Origin: Chthoniobacterales bacterium | GTDB taxonomy: Bacteria; Verrucomicrobiota; Verrucomicrobiia; Chthoniobacterales; JACTMZ01 | Assembly: GCA_021463515.1 (NCBI GenBank) | Contig: JAJTYZ010000119.1 | Coordinates: 1-35,159 of the forward strand | Reading direction: 5' to 3' | Length of the DNA stretch: 35,159 nucleotides | Shown here: in pieces, positions 3 through 7,638 of the stretch | Layout of the letters: every line of letters starts with the position of its first letter | Position numbering within the stretch: the first letter of the stretch is position 1 | Notes under the pieces: generated by a model | The model's input: only the letters and a program-made list of their open reading frames with translations | Told to the model about the DNA's origin: nothing | Databases searched by the model: none | Made by a program: the position numbers and the translations under genes

Positions 3-1133
3 TCCCTCAAAGAAGCCGACATGCGCTTCCTCCTCGCCTCCATCCTCTGGCAACACGGCTACTCCCCACGCGGCACCACCCTCATCGTCGAACACGGCAC
101 CGCCGCCATCCGCCAAGACCTCGAAGCCATGCTCCACAACGAAACCGGAGGCCTCATCACCATCGCACGCTCAGGCATGGAAGGCGCAGCCGCCGCCGCC
201 CACCAATACGCCGGACGCTCCAAAGGCAACTTCCGCTTCAAAGCCGCCCTCGAATCCCTCGGCAACCTCATCCACAACGAACTCGCCGCATTGCCAGGGC
301 AAACCGGCCCCGACCGCGACCGCCGCCCCGAACAACTCCACGGCCTACTCAAGCGCAACGACGCCCTCCTCAAAGCCCTCTCCCAACTCCCACCCGAACG
401 CGCCGAAATGCTCCGCTGGCCCCTCCTCACCATCCAACAATTCCGCGCCATCGCCGACGAAATCTACACCCGCATCAACGCCCGCACCGACCACGACCTC
501 GAAGGCTGGGACGCCCACTACACCCACGACCCACGCACCAACACCATGCGCCGCCTCTCCCCCACCGAAGTATGGAACCCAGGCCGACGCCACCTCATCC
601 GACTCTCACCCCAAGCCATCGCCGGAATCCTCGCCCCCGACAACGGCATCGAACTCACCACCCGCGCCGGAATGCTCACCCTCACCGCCAGCGAAATCAC
701 CGGCGACCTCCTCCGCTTCGACGCCCATCAACTCCCAGACCGCCAAAAAGTCTTCGCCATCCTCAACCCCTACGCCACCGACAGCCTCTGGATATTCGAC
801 GCCCACCCCCGCTTCATCACCGCCTGCCCACGCATCCACAGCATTTGCAGAGCCGATATACCCGCCCTGCAACACGAATGCGGACGCGCCGCAAAAATCG
901 AAGCCGAACGCCTAGCACCCTTCCGCGCCCGCCACGCCGCCGAAGCCCGCCAACGCGCCGCCGACATGCGCCACAACGCCCAAATCCTCACCCCCATCCA
1001 ACCCACATCCCGCCTCCCCAAAGACATCGAAGCCCTAGCAGCCGCCACAAGTCCGTCAAGTCCGTCCAGTCCGTCCGACCTAGAAGACACCGACACCGAC
1101 GCCCTAGCCACCGCCCTCCGCGAACTCATTTAA
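3..1133 (+). CDS. Mu-like transposase, C-terminal part (5' end outside window)
   Basis: The frame is open from the first complete codon at 3, so the gene starts upstream; the ATG at 21 is probably internal. Numbering from that ATG, residues 19-27 (TTLIVEHGT) resemble the strand and turn that carry the second catalytic acid of RNase H-fold transposases. A conserved helix KAALESLGNLIHNE follows, with Glu78 54 residues after Glu24, close to the D-to-E distance in MuA. The second acid therefore reads Glu rather than Asp. Residues about 170-270 would be the post-catalytic beta-barrel region, and 290-330 a basic helix. The C-terminus ends in a Ser/Pro-rich tail (SPSSPSSPSD) produced by a GTCCGTC-type DNA repeat. 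The MuB-like ATPase gene follows after 16 bp. Family assignment is by motif and by the A-B gene order, and the role (cutting and joining element ends) is inferred. Confidence 0.8.
   Translation, partial: SLKEADMRFLLASILWQHGYSPRGTTLIVEHGTAAIRQDLEAMLHNETGGLITIARSGMEGAAAAAHQYAGRSKGNFRFKAALESLGNLIHNELAALPGQTGPDRDRRPEQLHGLLKRNDALLKALSQLPPERAEMLRWPLLTIQQFRAIADEIYTRINARTDHDLEGWDAHYTHDPRTNTMRRLSPTEVWNPGRRHLIRLSPQAIAGILAPDNGIELTTRAGMLTLTASEITGDLLRFDAHQLPDRQKVFAILNPYATDSLWIFDAHPRFITACPRIHSICRADIPALQHECGRAAKIEAERLAPFRARHAAEARQRAADMRHNAQILTPIQPTSRLPKDIEALAAATSPSSPSSPSDLEDTDTDALATALRELI
1049..1077 (+). repeat. GTCCGTC-type repeat at a gene 3' end (first of a family)
   Basis: Three near-tandem copies of AAGTCCGTC/CAGTCCGTC lie inside the last codons of the transposase gene. 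Related stretches occur at 3282-3313, 4218-4249 and 5176-5213, each at the 3' end of an element gene. A looser version (TCCGTC, TTTGTCC, GTCCCAT units) lies at about 14481-14520, behind a chromosomal CoA-transferase gene. The family is therefore shared by element and host. Confidence 0.6.
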
Positions 1134-1149
1134 CCAACCACCAAAAACC

Positions 1150-2208
1150 ATGAACCAAACATCCACCACCATCACCATAGACCCCATCCTCTCCGCCGAA
1201 GCCTCATCCGCCCACAGCCGCATCAACGTCCCCCTCAACCTCACCGTCTGGCGCGACCGCACCACCGAAGAACAAGACCTCCTCACATGGTTCCACCAAT
1301 ACATCCTCGACAACAACCTCTCCTGGGACGACGCCGTCGAAGCCATCGGCTACGACCGCTCCACCGTCTTCCGACTCCTCAAAGGCACCTACCAAGCCGA
1401 CTCATGGGGCAAACCCATCGCACGCATCAAATCCTTCCGACGCATCGCCATCGCCCGAGGCACTATCACCAAAAACGTCTTCGCCGAAAACTCCATCTCC
1501 CGCATGATCTGGGCCGGCCTCGACTACGCCCTCGCCAACAACTCCATCACCACCATCATCGGCGAATCCCGCCAAGGCAAAACCATCGCCGCACGCGCAT
1601 GGGCCGAAGCCAACAACCACGGACGCTCCGTCTTCGTCACCGCCCCACCCGTCGGCGGCATCAAAGGCCTCATGCGCACCATCGCCGGAGCCATCGGCGC
1701 CAATAAAAACCACAGCATCGTCCAACTCTCCGAATCCCTCCACCGCGCCTTCAACCGCAACCGCATCCTCATCATAGACGAAGCACACCGCCTCATGCCC
1801 AGCGACGGACGCACCCTCAACCCCGTCCTCCTCGAACTCCTCCGCGACCTCCACGACCAAACACACTGCGCCCTAGCACTCGTCGCCACCGCCCGCTTCG
1901 AAGAACGCCTCCGCAGCGGCTCCTACCAATTCGAGCAACTCATAGGCCGCATCGGAATGCCCATCCGCCTCCCAAAAAAACTAGGCCGCAACGACGTACT
2001 CCCACTCATCCGCCAATACATCCCACAGCCATCCCCAGCACTCATCGCCACACTCCAAGATGTCGCCAACCACCCCGGACGCCTCGGCATCGTCGCCGAA
2101 ACCCTCAAAGTCGCCTCACGCATCGCCACCAAAGCCAAAGTCCCACTCGACGAAGACCACATCCACAAAGCCCTAGACCTCCGCGCCCGCATGACCGGCC
2201 AAGCCTAA
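1150..2208 (+). CDS. MuB/TniB-like AAA+ ATPase (transposition target-selection protein)
   Basis: A 352-aa protein directly downstream of the transposase. Residues about 58-80 form a helix-turn-helix-like segment (DDAVEAIGYDRSTVFRLL), and the basic stretch 88-105 may bind DNA. Walker A is GESRQGKT at 138-145 and Walker B is ILIIDEAH around 206-213, so the ATPase is probably active. The C-terminal third is basic and helical, as in AAA+ lids. In Mu and Tn7-type elements such an ATPase binds target DNA non-specifically, stimulates the transposase and gives target immunity; that role is inferred here from motif and position. The start at 1150 follows an ACCAA-type leader and no Shine-Dalgarno is visible. 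Confidence 0.85.
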   Translation: MNQTSTTITIDPILSAEASSAHSRINVPLNLTVWRDRTTEEQDLLTWFHQYILDNNLSWDDAVEAIGYDRSTVFRLLKGTYQADSWGKPIARIKSFRRIAIARGTITKNVFAENSISRMIWAGLDYALANNSITTIIGESRQGKTIAARAWAEANNHGRSVFVTAPPVGGIKGLMRTIAGAIGANKNHSIVQLSESLHRAFNRNRILIIDEAHRLMPSDGRTLNPVLLELLRDLHDQTHCALALVATARFEERLRSGSYQFEQLIGRIGMPIRLPKKLGRNDVLPLIRQYIPQPSPALIATLQDVANHPGRLGIVAETLKVASRIATKAKVPLDEDHIHKALDLRARMTGQA

Positions 2209-2234
2209 CAACCAAGCACCAAAAACCAAAAACC

Positions 2235-2483
2235 ATGAACACCGACACCGACACCATTCCGCCATCCGGCAAAATCACCTTCGCCATCTTCCATCTCCTC
2301 ACCGTCCTACAAGACAGCGAGCCACACATCACCGACAAAACCACCAGAACCGACATCGCCCACATCTGCCGCGAAGCAGCCCAATCCCTCAACCACGCCG
2401 CCGACCGCCTCAGCGTCACCCCCGCCGAAGCCCAAGTTCTACGACAAATCCAAAATGAAATCGAAAACACCCAACTCAACTAA
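2235..2483 (+). CDS. Small hypothetical protein of the Mu-like element
   Basis: An 82-aa acidic, mainly helical protein of no recognised family. It has no membrane segment or signal peptide. It sits 26 bp after the ATPase gene, and that gap is filled by ACCAA-type repeat. The strongly C-ending codon usage matches its neighbours, which supports real coding. Position suggests an early accessory gene of the element; function unknown. Confidence 0.6.
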   Translation: MNTDTDTIPPSGKITFAIFHLLTVLQDSEPHITDKTTRTDIAHICREAAQSLNHAADRLSVTPAEAQVLRQIQNEIENTQLN

Positions 2484-2514
2484 ACTAACAACCAAGAACC
2501 AAAAACCAATCACC

Positions 2515-2775
2515 ATGAAACCCACTCAAGCCACCGCCACCGCCCGCGAAACCAAACGCGAGCTACGCCGCGTCAACACCTCACTCCGCGCCCACATCCG
2601 AGCCTACCATAACGTCAAAATAACCACCAAACGCACAATAGACCGCAGCATCAAAAAAGCCGCACTCGAAGCCATCCGCCTCGAAAAACAAGCCATCCGC
2701 GACCTCCGCGCCATCACCCGCGCCGTCGAAGCACTCCAACGTCGCCAAAGCATCCTCCAAGGCCGCCTCCAATAA
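2515..2775 (+). CDS. Small basic helical protein of the Mu-like element
   Basis: An 86-aa protein with many Arg, Lys and Ala residues; residues 10-86 look like continuous helix and possibly coiled coil (AIRLEKQAIRDLRAITRAVEALQRRQ). The frame is also open from an ATG at 2455, but those codons would overlap the previous gene and translate the ACCAA-type leader. ATG 2515, placed right after that leader like every other start here, is preferred. It might be a nucleic-acid-binding or Gam-like accessory protein, but no family is recognised. Confidence 0.6.
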   Translation: MKPTQATATARETKRELRRVNTSLRAHIRAYHNVKITTKRTIDRSIKKAALEAIRLEKQAIRDLRAITRAVEALQRRQSILQGRLQ

Positions 2776-2807
2776 CCTACAACCAAGAACCAAGAACTTA
2801 AAACACC

Positions 2808-3314
2808 ATGAACCAAGAACCCAAAGTCAAAGCCCTAGTAGATCGCGGCCTCCAGCTCTACCGCCAAATCGAAGACGCCAAAAAAGAGCTAAAGCGCATC
2901 GAAGAAGCCCTCAAAGCCCACGCCCTCACCGGCGACCAGCAGCCCCTCAACGACCCCGACCGCGACGGCCGCCAATACCTCGCCATCGGCACCAACGAAA
3001 CTGTCCCCATCATCCTCACCGCCGACATCCTCTATCAGAGCTTCGCCGACGGCAGTATCCCCCATCTACAAGCCGCCAGCATCGCCGGAATGGACCTCGA
3101 CACCCTCTACACCCCCATCAAAACGTGGAAGATGCTCGCCAAAACCGGCAAAGCCTTCCGCGCCGAAGCCGTCACCCAACTCGGTGCCCACCGCGCCGCC
3201 CTCCTCATCACCGCCGTCACCCAAAAAGACAAAGACGGCATCCCAAAATCCCAAATCCGCACCGAATGGGACCGCGCCACCGAGTCCGTCTCCTCCGTCC
3301 CGTCAGTCCAGTAA
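2808..3314 (+). CDS. Hypothetical Mu-like element protein with N-terminal coiled coil
   Basis: A 168-aa protein. Residues 1-40 form a probable coiled coil (LYRQIEDAKKELKRIEEALKAH), followed by a mixed alpha/beta domain. The arrangement vaguely recalls phage host-nuclease-inhibitor (Gam) proteins, but no diagnostic motif supports that. The N-terminus MNQEP is a translation of the ACCAAGAACC leader repeat, and the C-terminus SVSSVPSVQ is a translation of the GTCCGTC-type repeat, so both ends have been extended by repeat DNA. Confidence 0.6.
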   Translation: MNQEPKVKALVDRGLQLYRQIEDAKKELKRIEEALKAHALTGDQQPLNDPDRDGRQYLAIGTNETVPIILTADILYQSFADGSIPHLQAASIAGMDLDTLYTPIKTWKMLAKTGKAFRAEAVTQLGAHRAALLITAVTQKDKDGIPKSQIRTEWDRATESVSSVPSVQ

Positions 3315-3355
3315 CCAACAACCAATCACCAAAAACCAAGCACCAACCACACCTC

Positions 3356-3649
3356 ATGCACCAAGAACCCAACTACCTCACCATCGAAGCCGCCACCAAG
3401 CAAGGTCTCACCTCCATCACCACCCCCATGATCCACAGCGAGACCTGGATCATCAGCAACATCCTCGACGACCTCCGGCGCGGCAACATCCCCTGCGCCG
3501 CCGTCGTCGTCACAGGAGGCACCGAAGTCTGGAGAGCCACCTCCGGCATGAAATTCAACACCAAAGAACCAACCACCACCAACCAAGAACCAAGCACCAC
3601 CAACCAAGAACCAAGCACCACCAACCAAGAACCAACCGCCAACCCATAA
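3356..3649 (+). CDS. Small hypothetical protein with repeat-encoded Asn/Gln/Thr/Pro tail
   Basis: A 97-aa protein. The frame is open from 3125, but ATG 3356 lies right behind an ACCAA-type leader and avoids a 190-bp overlap with the previous gene. Residues 1-70 look like a small folded domain of unknown type (YLTIEAATKQGLTSITTPMI, then an RRGNIPCAAVVV strand). Residues about 74-95 are TTNQEPS repeats, in-frame translation of a 21-bp tandem repeat (ACCACCAACCAAGAACCAAGC, written with variation). The tail is probably disordered. Confidence 0.55.
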   Translation: MHQEPNYLTIEAATKQGLTSITTPMIHSETWIISNILDDLRRGNIPCAAVVVTGGTEVWRATSGMKFNTKEPTTTNQEPSTTNQEPSTTNQEPTANP

Positions 3650-3655
3650 ACCACC

Positions 3656-3829
3656 ATGCACAACATCCTACAATTCCTCACCGACTGCTGGCTCCCCCTA
3701 CTAGCCGCCCTCGGCCTCGCCCTCACCCTCTACCCCCTCGGGAAAGCCAACGAACGCCGCCGCCAACGCCGCCTCTGGGCCGACCGCCTCCGCCACCACA
3801 ACGCCCACTCCATCCTCCGCCATCTATAA
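3656..3829 (+). CDS. 57-aa single-pass membrane protein
   Basis: ATG 3656 lies 6 bp after the previous stop and the frame runs to TAA 3827-3829. One hydrophobic helix (about residues 9-28, WLPLLAALGLALTLYPLG) is followed by an Arg/His-rich cytoplasmic tail (NERRRQRRLWADRLRHH). Codons end mostly in C as in its neighbours. A small membrane protein in a phage-like cassette could be a lysis or host-takeover (Kil-like) factor, but that is speculation. Confidence 0.5.
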   Translation: MHNILQFLTDCWLPLLAALGLALTLYPLGKANERRRQRRLWADRLRHHNAHSILRHL

Positions 3830-3834
3830 AGCCC

Positions 3835-4269
3835 ATGCTCACCCGTCGCCAAACAGCCCTCTACTGGCGCACCTGGGCTTCCATCTGCGAAGCCCAGGGC
3901 TGGCCGCGAAGCGACAACACCCGACGCTACGCCCTTCACGCCGAAGCCGGTTGCCCCCACTCCATGACCCAATTCCGCAACCGCGACTTCAACCACTACC
4001 TCAGCGCAGCCGCCCCCCTCTGCAACCGCATAGACATCCGCGACCGCGACCGCGAAAACGCCCTCCACACCATCAAAAACCTCCCACTCGATCCCCCCTA
4101 CATCGCCTCCATCTGCACCGACCTCTACGCCACCAACAACCTCGACACCCTCACCCTCCCACAACTCGAAAACCTCCGCAACACCCTCGTCCAACGCGCC
4201 CGCAAAAAATCCCCCAAAAGTCCGTCCCCTCAGTCCTGTCCGTCCAGTTATTCCCCCCACCCCTTCTAA
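3835..4269 (+). CDS. Hypothetical Mu-like element protein
   Basis: A 144-aa protein with ATG 3835 placed 5 bp after the preceding gene. Most of the chain is helical; the N-terminal LTRRQTALYWRTWASICEAQGW and the RYALHAEAGCPHSM stretch look conserved, but I do not recognise the family. The C-terminus is a Ser/Pro tail made by the GTCCGTC-type repeat (about 4218-4249), so the native end was probably near residue 125. Confidence 0.55.
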   Translation: MLTRRQTALYWRTWASICEAQGWPRSDNTRRYALHAEAGCPHSMTQFRNRDFNHYLSAAAPLCNRIDIRDRDRENALHTIKNLPLDPPYIASICTDLYATNNLDTLTLPQLENLRNTLVQRARKKSPKSPSPQSCPSSYSPHPF

Positions 4270-4282
4270 CTCCCCAATCCCC

Positions 4283-4645
4283 ATGAGCAGCGATCTCGCC
4301 ACCCAAATCGAAATCCACCTCCTCACCCTCGGCACATGGGTTCCCACAGCCGAACTCTGCGCACGCTACAACCTCAACGAACGCGTCCTCCGCGCCGTAG
4401 GCCGTCGCCCCGGCCTCCTCGATCATTTCGCCGTCAGCAGCACACGGCAAGGCACCCACGGCTACATCCATCACCGCTATCTCCCCACCGCCGACTGGCT
4501 CCCCATCAAACACCGCCTCCTCAGCCACGCCCTCGCCGAAATCCGCAAAGCCCGTCTCTGGGCCAAATCCCGCCACAACATCCTCACCGGCCCCCAAAAA
4601 TCCCTCCAAGAAATCCACACCCACCAAGCCCTATTACCCCTATGA
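4283..4645 (+). CDS. Winged-helix-like hypothetical protein
   Basis: A 120-aa protein. Residues 1-55 resemble a winged-helix DNA-binding fold (IEIHLLTLGTWVPTAELCARYNLNERVLRAV, then a possible wing). The C-terminal half is a basic amphipathic helix. Its TGA (4643-4645) overlaps the ATG of the next gene (4642-4644) as ATGA, which suggests translational coupling to the polymerase-like gene. A regulatory role is only inferred. Confidence 0.55.
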   Translation: MSSDLATQIEIHLLTLGTWVPTAELCARYNLNERVLRAVGRRPGLLDHFAVSSTRQGTHGYIHHRYLPTADWLPIKHRLLSHALAEIRKARLWAKSRHNILTGPQKSLQEIHTHQALLPL

Positions 4646-5199
4646 AATACACACACAGCCAAGCCATTTCTGTCGCCGAAGAAATACTCGACATCTTCTC
4701 CTCACGGTGCTCCCGCATCGTCATCGCCGGAAGCCTCCGCCGCCAAGCACCAGAAGTCTCCGACATTGAACTCCTCTACATCCCACAGACCGTGCAAAGT
4801 GATCCTGATCTCTTCGGCAATTGCCAACAAGTTAACCTCGCCAACGACTCTCTGGAAGACATGCTCCAAACTGGTTTTATCAGCCAACGTCTCAACACCC
4901 GAGGCCAAGCCACTTGGGGCGAGAAAAACAAACTCGCCATCCACACCAAGACCGGCATCCCCGTGGACTTCTTTGCCACCACCGCAGACTGCTGGTGGAA
5001 CTACCTCGTCTGCCGCACCGGCCCCGCCGAAAGCAACATCCGCATCGCCTCAATCGCCAAAGCACGCGGCTACCAATGGAACCCCTACGGCCCGGGCTTC
5101 ACCCGCCTCCACGACGGCAACCAATTCCCTATGACCTCCGAAGAAGCCGTCTTCGACTTCGTCGGCCTACCAGGCCCGTCCGCCACATCCGTCTCCTAA
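4642..5199 (+). CDS. Minimal polymerase-X-like nucleotidyltransferase (palm plus thumb)
   Basis: A 185-aa protein matching the catalytic palm and C-terminal thumb of family X DNA polymerases. GSLRR at 30-34 and SDIEL at 40-44 form the first metal-binding strand: Asp41, with Glu43 where Asp is usual. IPVDFF at 107-112 supplies the third acid, Asp109. RTGPAESNIRIASIAKARGYQWNPYG (125-150) and the ending EEAVFDFVGLP match the PolX thumb. The N-terminal 8-kDa and helix-hairpin-helix fingers of normal PolX are missing. It may fill the short gaps left when a Mu-type element inserts, or it may transfer nucleotides to another substrate; both are inference. It is translationally coupled to the upstream gene (ATGA). 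Confidence 0.75.
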   Translation: MKYTHSQAISVAEEILDIFSSRCSRIVIAGSLRRQAPEVSDIELLYIPQTVQSDPDLFGNCQQVNLANDSLEDMLQTGFISQRLNTRGQATWGEKNKLAIHTKTGIPVDFFATTADCWWNYLVCRTGPAESNIRIASIAKARGYQWNPYGPGFTRLHDGNQFPMTSEEAVFDFVGLPGPSATSVS

Positions 5200-5213
5200 G
5201 TCCCATTAGTCCC

Positions 5214-5371
5214 ATGACCGCCACCGCAATGTTCGCAATCCCCGTCCCCAATACATCGAAACCGAACAACGCATCGGCGACATACGTCGTCTAGTCGAAC
5301 TTCCGGCCCCGGATCCCACAGTCAACGTCGGCGAATTATTCCGCAAAATCCGCGCCGAACTCCCCGAATAG
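5214..5371 (+). pseudogene. Frameshifted last ORF of the Mu-like element
   Basis: ATG 5214 follows a GTCCGTC/GTCCCAT-type leader but its frame stops after 26 codons. The frame one base back reads on as QYIETEQRIGDIRRLVELPAP and then a plausible helical ending with VGELFRKIRAELPE, to TAG 5369-5371. That frame has no start of its own. A single missing base near 5229 would join both into a protein of about 52 aa. It is either a real frameshift mutation, a programmed shift, or a sequencing or assembly error. Confidence 0.4.
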
Positions 5372-5576
5372 CACCCCCCTTGCAACATCCTTGCAACGCC
5401 TCGGAAAGTGCCAAAAAGTTTCCCAACTCCCTGTCATTATCGCCAAAAACCCCTAATTTTTCTCAAATACCCCCCAACGAACAGCCCGCAGCGCAACCCC
5501 CTATCCTTCAGCCACCTCCGCCTAATCCCACCTAATCCCAAGTTTCCCAACTCCCATGTCTTGTTTCATTCCACAC
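5372..5576. other. Non-coding right flank of the Mu-like element
   Basis: No convincing gene lies in these 205 bases between the last element ORF and the convergent chromosomal operon. The segment holds CTTGCAAC twice (about 5379-5397), an exact 16-bp direct repeat (5416-5431 and 5540-5555) and a tandem decamer CCTAATCCCA (5521-5540). Mu-type elements carry several transposase-binding sites inside each end, so this is where the right end is expected. The exact boundary cannot be fixed without the left end. Confidence 0.45.
5416..5555 (+). repeat. 16-bp direct repeats, possible transposase end-binding sites
   Basis: AAGTTTCCCAACTCCC occurs exactly at 5416-5431 and 5540-5555, 124 bp apart and in the same orientation. 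The bases after both copies are also similar (TGTCATT and ATGTCTTG). The spacing and the location just beyond the last element gene fit paired transposase sites in a Mu-like right end. This is inference from arrangement only. Confidence 0.4.
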
Positions 5577-6434
5577 TCAGTTGCTGCGTGGGGCAACGCG
5601 CCGATTATCCGAAAGAGAGCCACTATTTCCTGCGAAGCGGGAATCTGCACGGCGACGTTGTTGTACGAAGGTATTGTTATCGCCGAATTGCGCCCACGGC
5701 CCACGCGGTACATCTCGAAATTCGACAAAACGCCAACTAGCAACATCCTTACCGCGCATTCCAAGATAATCACGCACCGCAGGTGAAACATCTAAGCCGG
5801 CACCTTGATTGAGATTGGGAAGCGGACGTTGATTGCCGAAAACATATTGCCAGTGATCCGTGCGGAAAGGTCCGCAATCTTCCCACTGCGCATAGGCTTC
5901 ACGTCCGCGAGCGCGAACCACGACCCAGCGACTTTTGCAAACGGACTCGCCTTCACGGACAAAAGTTTCGCGAAACCACGGAATCACGCGGGGAGCCTCG
6001 GGTTTTGTCTGCCCCTTAGTAACATCATTGTAGGGAAGCGCGATATAAAAGGGATTTTGCCTCGGAATGAATCGCGCAGGAAGATAACCACGACGTCCTC
6101 GAGTGTCCGGGTCATCGAAACCGCCATAACTCCGCACCCATTCTTTATCCCAAGAGCTTTTCGTATTCGGCACCGGATTATTAACGGTGGGAAGCTCCCC
6201 GATCCAAAAAACCGTCGTGACGATATTATTCTTCCACGGATACCGTCGGGAATTTCCGGCGCGAGCGATCTCGGGAGCACGCGGGAGCATGGGCTCGACA
6301 CGCAGCAGAACGCTTTCCCGCAACCGCAAAGCCTGCTCCTCAAAACTCGGTGCCGCCCTTAAAATATCAGAAGCACCGCTAATCCAAAGAGCAGATAGCA
6401 TCAATAGAAGCCTTGAGGGAAAGGTTGCCGACAT
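5577..6434 (-). CDS. Secreted protein of unknown function (double-psi-barrel-like?)
   Basis: A 285-aa protein with an N-terminal signal peptide (SRLLLMLSALWISGASDILRA). The frame is open further upstream to 6620, but that part overlaps rodA; ATG 6434 gives a proper signal peptide and a 40-bp gap, and a GTG at 6443 is possible. The middle part (FYIALPYNDV, then AYAQWEDCGPFRTDHWQYVFG, then LNQGAGLDVSPAVRDYLGM and WRFVEFRDVPRGPW) looks like a small beta-barrel of the RlpA/DPBB kind; that likeness is my inference. As the last gene of an operon with rodA, a cell-envelope role is plausible. Its 3' end faces the Mu-like element, and the last residues could be altered by the insertion. Confidence 0.65.
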   Translation of the reverse strand: MSATFPSRLLLMLSALWISGASDILRAAPSFEEQALRLRESVLLRVEPMLPRAPEIARAGNSRRYPWKNNIVTTVFWIGELPTVNNPVPNTKSSWDKEWVRSYGGFDDPDTRGRRGYLPARFIPRQNPFYIALPYNDVTKGQTKPEAPRVIPWFRETFVREGESVCKSRWVVVRARGREAYAQWEDCGPFRTDHWQYVFGNQRPLPNLNQGAGLDVSPAVRDYLGMRGKDVASWRFVEFRDVPRGPWAQFGDNNTFVQQRRRADSRFAGNSGSLSDNRRVAPRSN

Positions 6435-6474
6435 GAACAGCACATTATCGCCTTGTTCCCAATGAGACGCAAGC

Positions 6475-7638
6475 TTAACGGCTGGGAAAAAGGCGCATCC
6501 CTTTCGGCGGTCGGAGGGGATCTCTATGCTTGGGAGTTGGTTCCGCGATTTTTCGGTGAATCCAAATACTTTGCAAAACCCCAAGGCTAAAAAGAACCGC
6601 CAGCAAAAATGATCCGCCATAACTCACGAGCGGCAAAGGCAATCCTGTGATTGGAGTAACACCAATCGTCATGCCGATATTCATAAAAACATGCGTAAAA
6701 AGGAGCGTCGTCAATCCAACGGCCAGCAGCCGCCCAAAGTCATCATTCGCCTTCAGCGCGATATAAAGTCCAATGCCCACCAAAAGTAAAAAGCTCAGCA
6801 ACAAAAGGGCACCGCCAATAAACCCATGCTGTTCACCAATCACCGAAAAAATAAAGTCGTTGTGCACAATCGTGCTTGGAAGAAATCCAAGTTCGTTGAG
6901 TGTGTTGGGTGCCTTAAATCCCTTCCCTTCCCAGCCGCCGGAACCAATGGCGGTGAGGGATTGGTTAATCGTCCACCCTGCTCCACGCGGATCAAGTTCG
7001 GGATCAAGAAAGGTCACAATGCGCAGACGCTGGTAGGGCTTAAGGCCGAAATTGACCATGAGCGGGATGGCAATCACAGCGACGAGCAGCAAGGTGATGA
7101 GATAACGCCCGGGAACACGCGCCGCATAGAGCATCGCCAATACCACGGGCATCCACACAATCGCGGAACCAAGATCAGGCTGAATGAGAATGAGGAGCCA
7201 CGGAGCAGCGACAATAACGCCGCAAAGCGCAATACGAAAAATCGGTGGCATGTTTTCGTAATCGGCTAAAAAAGTCGCAATCACCATCACCGAGGCAAGA
7301 ATGGCAAGCTGCGAAGGCTGAAAATTAAAAAAACCCAAATTCAACCAACTTCGCGCTCCATAAACTTCCTCCCCTATAAAATGTGTGGCCAACAAGGCCG
7401 CTAATCCTGCCAAATACAAGGGCAATCCGCCGCGCCGAATCCACCGGTAATCGGTAAGCGATACCACGAGAAAAATTGCAAATCCCACAAGCAGCCAAAC
7501 CAACTGACGATTCCAAAACGAATGTTCACGCATCCATGTTGCGCTGTAGATGGCAAAGATGCCGAAAGCACCGAGCAAGACAGTGAGAATAAGCAGCGGC
7601 CAATGGAGCGCGGCGAGTTTACGAGGAATGGACATCAT
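6475..7638 (-). CDS. rodA: Rod-shape SEDS peptidoglycan polymerase RodA
   Basis: A 387-aa integral membrane protein with about ten hydrophobic helices, the usual length for RodA. Family signatures include FQPSQLAILASVM in the second helix pair, GRYLITLLLV, the long periplasmic loop NELGFLPSTIVHNDFIFSVIGEQHGFIGG with the conserved Asp, and TPITGLPLPLVSYGGS near the end. It polymerises lipid II glycan chains with a partner class B PBP during elongation, so the cell is probably rod-shaped. The start is ATG 7638 or the adjacent ATG 7635, 11 bp after the upstream ATPase gene; both belong to one operon. Confidence 0.93.
   Translation of the reverse strand: MMSIPRKLAALHWPLLILTVLLGAFGIFAIYSATWMREHSFWNRQLVWLLVGFAIFLVVSLTDYRWIRRGGLPLYLAGLAALLATHFIGEEVYGARSWLNLGFFNFQPSQLAILASVMVIATFLADYENMPPIFRIALCGVIVAAPWLLILIQPDLGSAIVWMPVVLAMLYAARVPGRYLITLLLVAVIAIPLMVNFGLKPYQRLRIVTFLDPELDPRGAGWTINQSLTAIGSGGWEGKGFKAPNTLNELGFLPSTIVHNDFIFSVIGEQHGFIGGALLLLSFLLLVGIGLYIALKANDDFGRLLAVGLTTLLFTHVFMNIGMTIGVTPITGLPLPLVSYGGSFLLAVLFSLGVLQSIWIHRKIAEPTPKHRDPLRPPKGMRLFPSR

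Follow-up and report, generated by a model that had tools for sequence, protein, structure and literature searches.

Gene content and predicted right end of the element

The window analyzed here is a stretch of 35,159 nucleotides from a Chthoniobacterales bacterium, and it makes up one entire contig (G000:C23) of an assembly with a completeness of 65.65%. At its left end, ahead of host DNA, lie the genes of a MuA-type transposase (A) and a MuB-type AAA+ ATPase (B), seven small open reading frames (ORFs; o3 to o9), and the gene of a 185-residue family X nucleotidyltransferase, here called mini-PolX. We suggest that this element is probably the early (right) arm of a transposable prophage of the Mu/B3 type, whose late arm would lie beyond the contig start and whose last early gene would encode an accessory repair enzyme. 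The features are as follows, with the basis of each in brackets (E, expectation value).

3..1133, plus strand: MuA-type transposase, C-terminal 376 residues (phrog_310, E 3e-9; 66-68% identity to the 603-residue A protein of the related prophage G097, from residue 233)
1150..2208, plus strand: MuB-type AAA+ ATPase, 352 residues (PF13401; PF09077, Phage-MuB_C, 9.1e-6; phrog_296, 2.8e-40; 82% identity to G097)
2235..2483, plus strand: o3, small early ORF, 82 residues (36% identity to the ORF after B in G097)
2515..2775, plus strand: o4, small early ORF, 86 residues (open frame only; no convincing match)
2808..3314, plus strand: o5, early ORF, 168 residues (39% identity to an ORF near the mini-PolX gene of locus L077)
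3356..3649, plus strand: o6, small ORF, 97 residues, with a repetitive end (open frame only)
3656..3829, plus strand: o7, small ORF, 57 residues (open frame only)
3835..4269, plus strand: o8, early ORF, 144 residues, conserved in related prophages (53% identity to G097, 36% to L082)
4283..4645, plus strand: o9, early ORF, 120 residues (62% identity to G097 over 87 residues)
4642..5199, plus strand: mini-PolX, 185 residues, family X nucleotidyltransferase with palm and thumb only; D41, E43, D109 (Pfam, profile, predicted fold)
5416..5431, plus strand: copy 1 of a 16-nucleotide direct repeat, putative transposase site of the right end (repeat search)
5540..5568, plus strand: copy 2 of the repeat (5540-5555) and predicted right terminus, with TCA at 5568 (layout as in G097; end position inferred)
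5577..6620, minus strand: first host gene (comparison with 6 of the genus's 10 other genomes)

A transposase, an AAA+ ATPase, small ORFs, and a 185-residue PolX with palm and thumb but no fingers had been read from the sequence in an earlier note, and the Pfam, PHROGs, and profile searches found all of them. The left edge of the window falls inside the frame of A, so that about 232 N-terminal residues lie beyond the contig start. The order of a MuA-type transposase, recognized by its C-terminal part only, and then a MuB-type ATPase is that of transposable phages. Pfam gave no match for A in the three A proteins tested, which reflects strong divergence. In the alignment of the window's A with its relatives, one Glu (VEHGTA in the window) is invariant throughout this MuA lineage, presumably at the position where the second Asp of the DDE triad is expected.

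The seven small ORFs occupy 2235-4645, and none of them has a convincing family match in Pfam or PHROGs. The stop codon of o9 overlaps the start codon of the mini-PolX gene (ATGA). The gene caller picks the wrong strand in this element and partly in L065 and L077, so frames were set by hand and searches were run in all six frames. The spacers that precede most of the early genes (1134-1149, 2206-2234, 2484-2514, 2776-2807, and 3312-3355) are A/C-rich (AACCAA...ACCATG) and have no evident Shine-Dalgarno site; a related repeat at 3559-3620 matches G000:C16:31600-31659.

Downstream of the mini-PolX gene, the 16-nucleotide direct repeat AAGTTTCCCAACTCCC is found at 5416-5431 and 5540-5555, and the exact core TTTCCCAACT occurs twice in the window (0.07 expected). 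The corresponding place in G097 has three copies of TTCCCAACT in a span of 156 bases, where 0.11 would be expected for the 20.5-kb locus. Listed by locus, the right-end repeats number three in L123 (0.11 expected) and three in L184 (0.00 expected); all these motifs were chosen post hoc, after inspection, and the expected counts apply to motifs of that kind. After the last copy, the window and G097 share the layout of TTTCCCAACT followed by 16 nucleotides ending in TCA. G312 carries a different 11-mer three times, with spacings of 41 and 95 bases compared with 40 and 107 in G097. The right-end repeats of the window thus resemble the layout of G097 and L184, while its left end is off the contig. 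This similarity suggests that the repeats are transposase sites and that the element would end at 5568. The stop codon of the minus-strand host gene, at 5577-5579, is the native stop of its genus relatives (all six genomes fetched of the ten others). The insertion is therefore intergenic, and the element probably ends near 5568. The earlier note, which let the element run to 5576, was right that host DNA resumes here, but the predicted end lies at about 5568 instead.

In G097, a tRNA-Ser gene begins 25 bases past the predicted right end. Immediately beyond that transposable prophage on its right side (L015:17662-19065) are this tRNA-Ser gene and one for a phage integrase (phrog_1, 4.7e-47).

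Late genes in related prophages

Nothing phage-structural was found in the window before host DNA resumes, as judged from ORFs, Pfam, and PHROGs. The earlier note had pointed to this absence. The observation holds within the window, but it is uninformative about what lies upstream, since the contig end inside the transposase cuts off everything to the left of A. Related prophages show what can be expected there. G097, a 39-kb IMG/VR record found with B, is a close relative (66% identity for A and 82% for B). Its minus strand encodes, to the left of A and interspersed with small genes, a portal protein (6.1e-41), a head maturation protease (5.4e-23), and a terminase (5.1e-7); it has no mini-PolX gene. 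G312, a Verrucomicrobia metagenome-assembled genome (MAG), has on one contig a minus-strand head protease gene followed by A, B, Mu Gam (PF07352, 3.4e-25), short ORFs, an o8-like ORF, the mini-PolX gene as the last called gene, the repeat array, and host-like genes, part of which were scanned. In G225, G198, and G222 the head protease gene is likewise on the strand opposite to MuA or MuB. Because phrog_296 matches all 14 control genomes as well as 14 of 50 records, it was used for positions only and not for counts.

Such divergent arms are the layout of phage B3 (PMC8705779). B3-type phages, including phage B3 and Leptospira prophages, share the two divergent arms with G097, G312, G225, G198, and G222, and they keep the transposase, the ATPase, and short early genes together in one arm, as these relatives do; the part of PMC8705779 examined mentions no mini-PolX, whereas one is present here. 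Since the relatives carry head genes to the left of A, the window is most simply explained as an early arm cut by the contig end. The possibility mentioned in the earlier note as its second choice, a prophage with its late genes upstream, is thus the pattern seen in relatives.

The first choice of that note was a repair-autonomous transposon, that is, a cassette of transposase, ATPase, and PolX without phage genes which seals its own insertion gaps. Such a cassette would agree with the lack of structural genes ahead of host DNA, and in L077 the mini-PolX gene directly follows MuB. To weigh this reading, the conservation of the three genes was followed through relatives of the transposase. Scanning with the MuA of this lineage yielded 39 records, all of which have a MuB match (39/39), but the mini-PolX gene was found in only four of them (G225, G214, G285, and G282; flanks and whole records). 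Counting the 27 records that extend at least 3 kb past MuB in the stretch fetched, which is the distance of the mini-PolX gene in the window, is fairer; all four carriers are among them, giving 4/27. The transposase, ATPase, and PolX are therefore not conserved together, and the mini-PolX gene is absent as a rule (35 of 39 records, or 23 of 27). Moreover, relatives carry head genes, and 66 of the 74 mini-PolX loci from IMG/VR described below have no MuA or MuB in the flanks examined. The two patterns that the earlier note had named beforehand as speaking against its proposal, homologous elements mostly without the gene and prophages with head genes that carry it among other early genes (G312 and G015), were both found. 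We consider a repair-autonomous transposon very unlikely. A false lead is thereby removed, for when a contig ends within a two-armed prophage, its early arm mimics a transposon without phage genes.

Sequence and predicted fold of mini-PolX

By sequence and predicted fold, the 185-residue protein is a PolX. In Pfam it passes the cut-off of 25 bits for the thumb (PF14791, 28.5 bits) and falls below the same cut-off for the palm (PF14792, 20.1 bits); the naming of palm and thumb follows Pfam and the earlier note. As a single sequence its best PDB match was the PolX of African swine fever virus (ASFV), which was weak (E 0.0065). A profile of 59 aligned sequences matched the PolX of Thermus thermophilus (2.4e-15), Pol lambda (8.3e-14), ASFV PolX (2.6e-11), and Pol beta (3.6e-10), and the first two of these matches span palm and thumb. 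The AlphaFold2 model (predicted local distance difference test, pLDDT, 95.9) bore out the structural relationship expected by the earlier note: every one of the 50 Foldseek matches listed for the PDB was a Pol beta, a Pol lambda, or the T. thermophilus PolX (template modelling, TM, scores on the query 0.66-0.78). Among the viral models of BFVD there were 24 matches at E 0.001 or better; the two best are proteins of 252-254 residues, a 174-residue Harvfovirus PolX ranks third, and proteins of uncultured Caudovirales phages are also included. PolX-fold phage proteins are therefore not new to databases. No 8-kDa, fingers, or PHP domain is present in mini-PolX, which consists of palm and thumb only according to Pfam and the model.

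The residues that define family X are kept. In the 59 aligned sequences, the palm motif GS-x-RR is nearly invariant (G30 in 59, S31 in 58, R33 in 58, R34 in 59), as are the acidic triad (D41 in 59; E43 in 58, with one D; D109 in 58, with one E), the TG of the thumb (T126 and G127 in 59), and the Asn contacting the deoxynucleoside triphosphate (dNTP) (N132 in 55). Asp, or rarely Glu, is canonical for the triad in PolX (PMC9226535). That the alignment retains the triad, GS-x-RR, the TG, and the Asn argues for an active, dNTP-binding nucleotidyltransferase. The steric gate is different. Most canonical prokaryotic PolX enzymes have YF or HF at this position (PMC9226535), whereas here the residue is C, I, or V in 57 of 59 sequences, with Arg (R125) following in 58 of 59; we did not treat YF/HF as defining, because it is not universal even among canonical PolX. 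D-x-E plus D, together with R-T-G in place of the YF/HF gate, is thus the family's own signature. Of the 27 loci found in GTDB genomes, 26 were aligned; all ten close ones have both D-x-E and R-T-G, and among the 16 distant ones each motif is present in 15. Because D-[IVL]-E was required by one of the search patterns, the D-x-E count is biased; none of the patterns included R-T-G, and its count is free of this bias.

Family X polymerases, minimal PolX, and B3-type prophages are all known. ASFV PolX (174 residues), which has been called the smallest known DNA polymerase (PMC13252658), likewise consists of palm and thumb only and has about the same length as mini-PolX; however, the sequence similarity is weak, the D-x-E and R-T-G motifs belong to the phage family, and the host of ASFV is eukaryotic. 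The bacterial PolX1 represented by the T. thermophilus enzyme, which has a PHP domain, shares palm and thumb homology with mini-PolX (profile E 2.4e-15), but the 8-kDa, fingers, and PHP domains are absent from mini-PolX and its steric gate is another. The PolX2 group, reported in viruses too, resembles mini-PolX in having neither the 8-kDa nor the PHP domain (PMC12926913); compared by its description only, it has an extra helical C-terminal domain, whereas in the mini-PolX model the thumb is followed only by a helix of 4 residues. The viral models of BFVD, among them the 174-residue Harvfovirus PolX and the uncultured Caudovirales proteins, match in fold, although the two best are longer (252-254 residues). 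No phage minimal PolX with the D-x-E/R-T-G signature was found in literature titles and abstract openings, largely outside subscription journals, or in the available part of a review of phage polymerases (PMC8775771). In PHROGs the window's mini-PolX matched no family at E up to 1, NCBIfam gave weak matches to full PolX far below the cut-off for the three mini-PolX proteins tested (3/3), and PADLOC had no match for any of five tested (5/5).

Several observations weigh against an early arm with a repair polymerase. When three mismatches are allowed, the 16-nucleotide repeat has two matches in the window against 0.40 expected, and 4 of 100 shuffled sequences reach two. Two carriers of mini-PolX, G219 (L073) and G015, have the head protease and MuB on the same strand; their one-direction layout differs from that of B3-type phages, and the two-arm layout is therefore not general. 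The missing N-terminal part of A had no match elsewhere in the assembly, with the 603-residue A of G097 as the query; this search of a 65.65%-complete assembly was aimed at A only and not at late genes. The window's mini-PolX (5172-5199) ends without the YxxPxxR tail found after the thumb in the family consensus, and this lack, together with the changed steric gate (C/I/V-R), means that its activity may differ from DNA gap filling.

Two alternatives were weighed. The element might be a decayed prophage remnant in which the late arm was deleted and the early arm alone was left, and that the rest of A was not found in the assembly fits such a remnant, with late genes outside that search. However, the contig ends inside A as an assembly break would, the nine reading frames that follow A are all open, and the repeats of the right end are in place, so that we regard decay as unlikely. 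The other alternative is that the protein is a PolX-fold nucleotidyltransferase which has ceased to make DNA and might, for example, attach nucleotides to RNA or protein or act in counter-defence. It is in line with the family-wide change of the steric gate (R125 in 58 of 59), D-x-E replacing D-x-D, the absence of fingers and the 8-kDa domain, and the accessory position at the end of the early operon. On the other hand, the closest folds and profiles are DNA polymerases, the palm GS-x-RR, the thumb TG, and the dNTP-contacting Asn are kept, and PADLOC recognized none of the five proteins tested; we take a loss of DNA synthesis to be rather unlikely.

Distribution and proposed role of mini-PolX

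An IMG/VR scan with the window's mini-PolX alone found nothing, whereas an alignment of six mini-PolX sequences found 74 loci. The window's mini-PolX alone, searched against 50,697 phage records, had one weak match (25% identity). GTDB genomes gave 27 loci; of the ten closest (41-51% identity), nine come from Verrucomicrobiota MAGs and one from a Planctomycetota MAG, and five of these ten best loci lie on contigs equal in length to contigs already met among the 97 genomes near the window. Of those 97 genomes, which include the window's own, seven matched, with G017 having a full-length PolX and G070 a fragment, and the ten other genomes of the genus had no match. Distant short PolX-like proteins (L190-L205, 25-33% identity), mostly with D-x-E and R-T-G, occur in Bacteroidota, Chloroflexi, and other genomes, and one of their genes (L196) is near a phage integrase gene. 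A 772-residue gene near the mini-PolX gene of another locus (L092:4-2319) contains an intein-like (Hint) stretch just under the Pfam cut-off.

MuA and/or MuB were found in the flanks, which are 10 kb at most and in nine loci under 8 kb, of 8 of the 74 IMG/VR loci (L048, L065, L067, L073, L077, L082, L098, and L119) and near three of the ten close genome loci (L183, L184, and L187). With the window, L134, and L137, the transposable carriers total 14. In 13 of these 14 the mini-PolX gene is downstream of MuB on the same strand, directly so in L077; in L098 it precedes MuA. At the other loci the neighbors vary; among the recurring clusters are those of a DnaB helicase, a ParB-like protein, a DNA methylase, a terminase, and a portal protein. 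A count of carriers by blastp and phrog_310 was too low and was replaced by the count with lineage profiles, for phrog_310 overlooked four of the eight transposable carriers (L048, L073, L077, and L119), and its five matches include the weak L114 (6.3e-5), which is outside the eight.

Transposable phages are over-represented among the carriers. With the lineage profiles, MuA/MuB were found in 8 of 74 mini-PolX loci and in 0 of 80 control loci (p 0.0023), the control being the top 80 among 592 DNA methylase loci, unmatched for host; one of them (L211, 1/80) itself carries mini-PolX. With phrog_310, run on 50 of the 80, the counts were 5/74 and 0/50 (p 0.081). However, a tree of 62 rows gave no sign of a transposable clade of mini-PolX: the 13 transposable-phage rows need 13 changes (bootstrap range 10-13), compared with a mean of 12.1 after shuffling, and the well-supported branches alone force only two. 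The tree was built after G017 and the three long rows L112, L114, and L116 were dropped and five genome rows were added; it does not include L119, and its bootstrap had not settled. Judging from these comparisons, mini-PolX is a stand-alone family and an optional gene that recurs in many, unrelated phages.

These distributions bear on the possibility that mini-PolX of transposable phages is specialized for the short gaps left after Mu-type strand transfer, in a host without DNA polymerase I (Pol I). The over-representation and the usual position downstream of MuB (13 of 14 transposable carriers) are in its favor, and Pol I has been reported missing in a significant fraction of Verrucomicrobia (PMC12926913). 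Nevertheless, most carriers have no transposition genes in the flanks examined, the transposable copies do not cluster on the tree, the control is unmatched for host and includes a carrier, and the gaps at phage Mu insertions are repaired by PriA and RecABC and not by a gap-filling polymerase (PMC3325207). Since most carriers show no transposase in the sequence examined and Mu uses PriA and RecABC, service to transposition in particular is less likely, and we judge such a specialization improbable.

We therefore return to the early arm of a transposable prophage with an accessory mini-PolX. The gene sits last in the run of early genes, where transposable phages keep short accessory genes. Most probably the protein is an accessory repair polymerase, which would be made early and close short gaps in the phage's DNA while this is replicated or repaired, a role like that proposed for ASFV PolX in its own virus. 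The ASFV enzyme protects the stability of the viral genome (PMC11646218), and palm plus thumb is enough for it; a mutated Faustovirus PolX reduced to palm and thumb still synthesized DNA in the absence of a template (PMC13252658). Gap filling by mini-PolX is plausible, and it may pay off in hosts without Pol I. A wider proposal, which we consider rather doubtful, is that transposable and other phages of bacteria often lacking Pol I spread a distinct clade of minimal PolX that would supply gap filling with an altered sugar selection and, in the transposable ones, also help to seal insertions; the D-x-E/R-T-G clade of this proposal would have distant members in Bacteroidota, Chloroflexi, and other genomes. 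A family of roughly the size of ASFV PolX, present in many phages and differing in its nucleotide-binding signature, would be a source of new minimal polymerases and would provide a testable case of phages bringing a repair polymerase into hosts that may have no Pol I.

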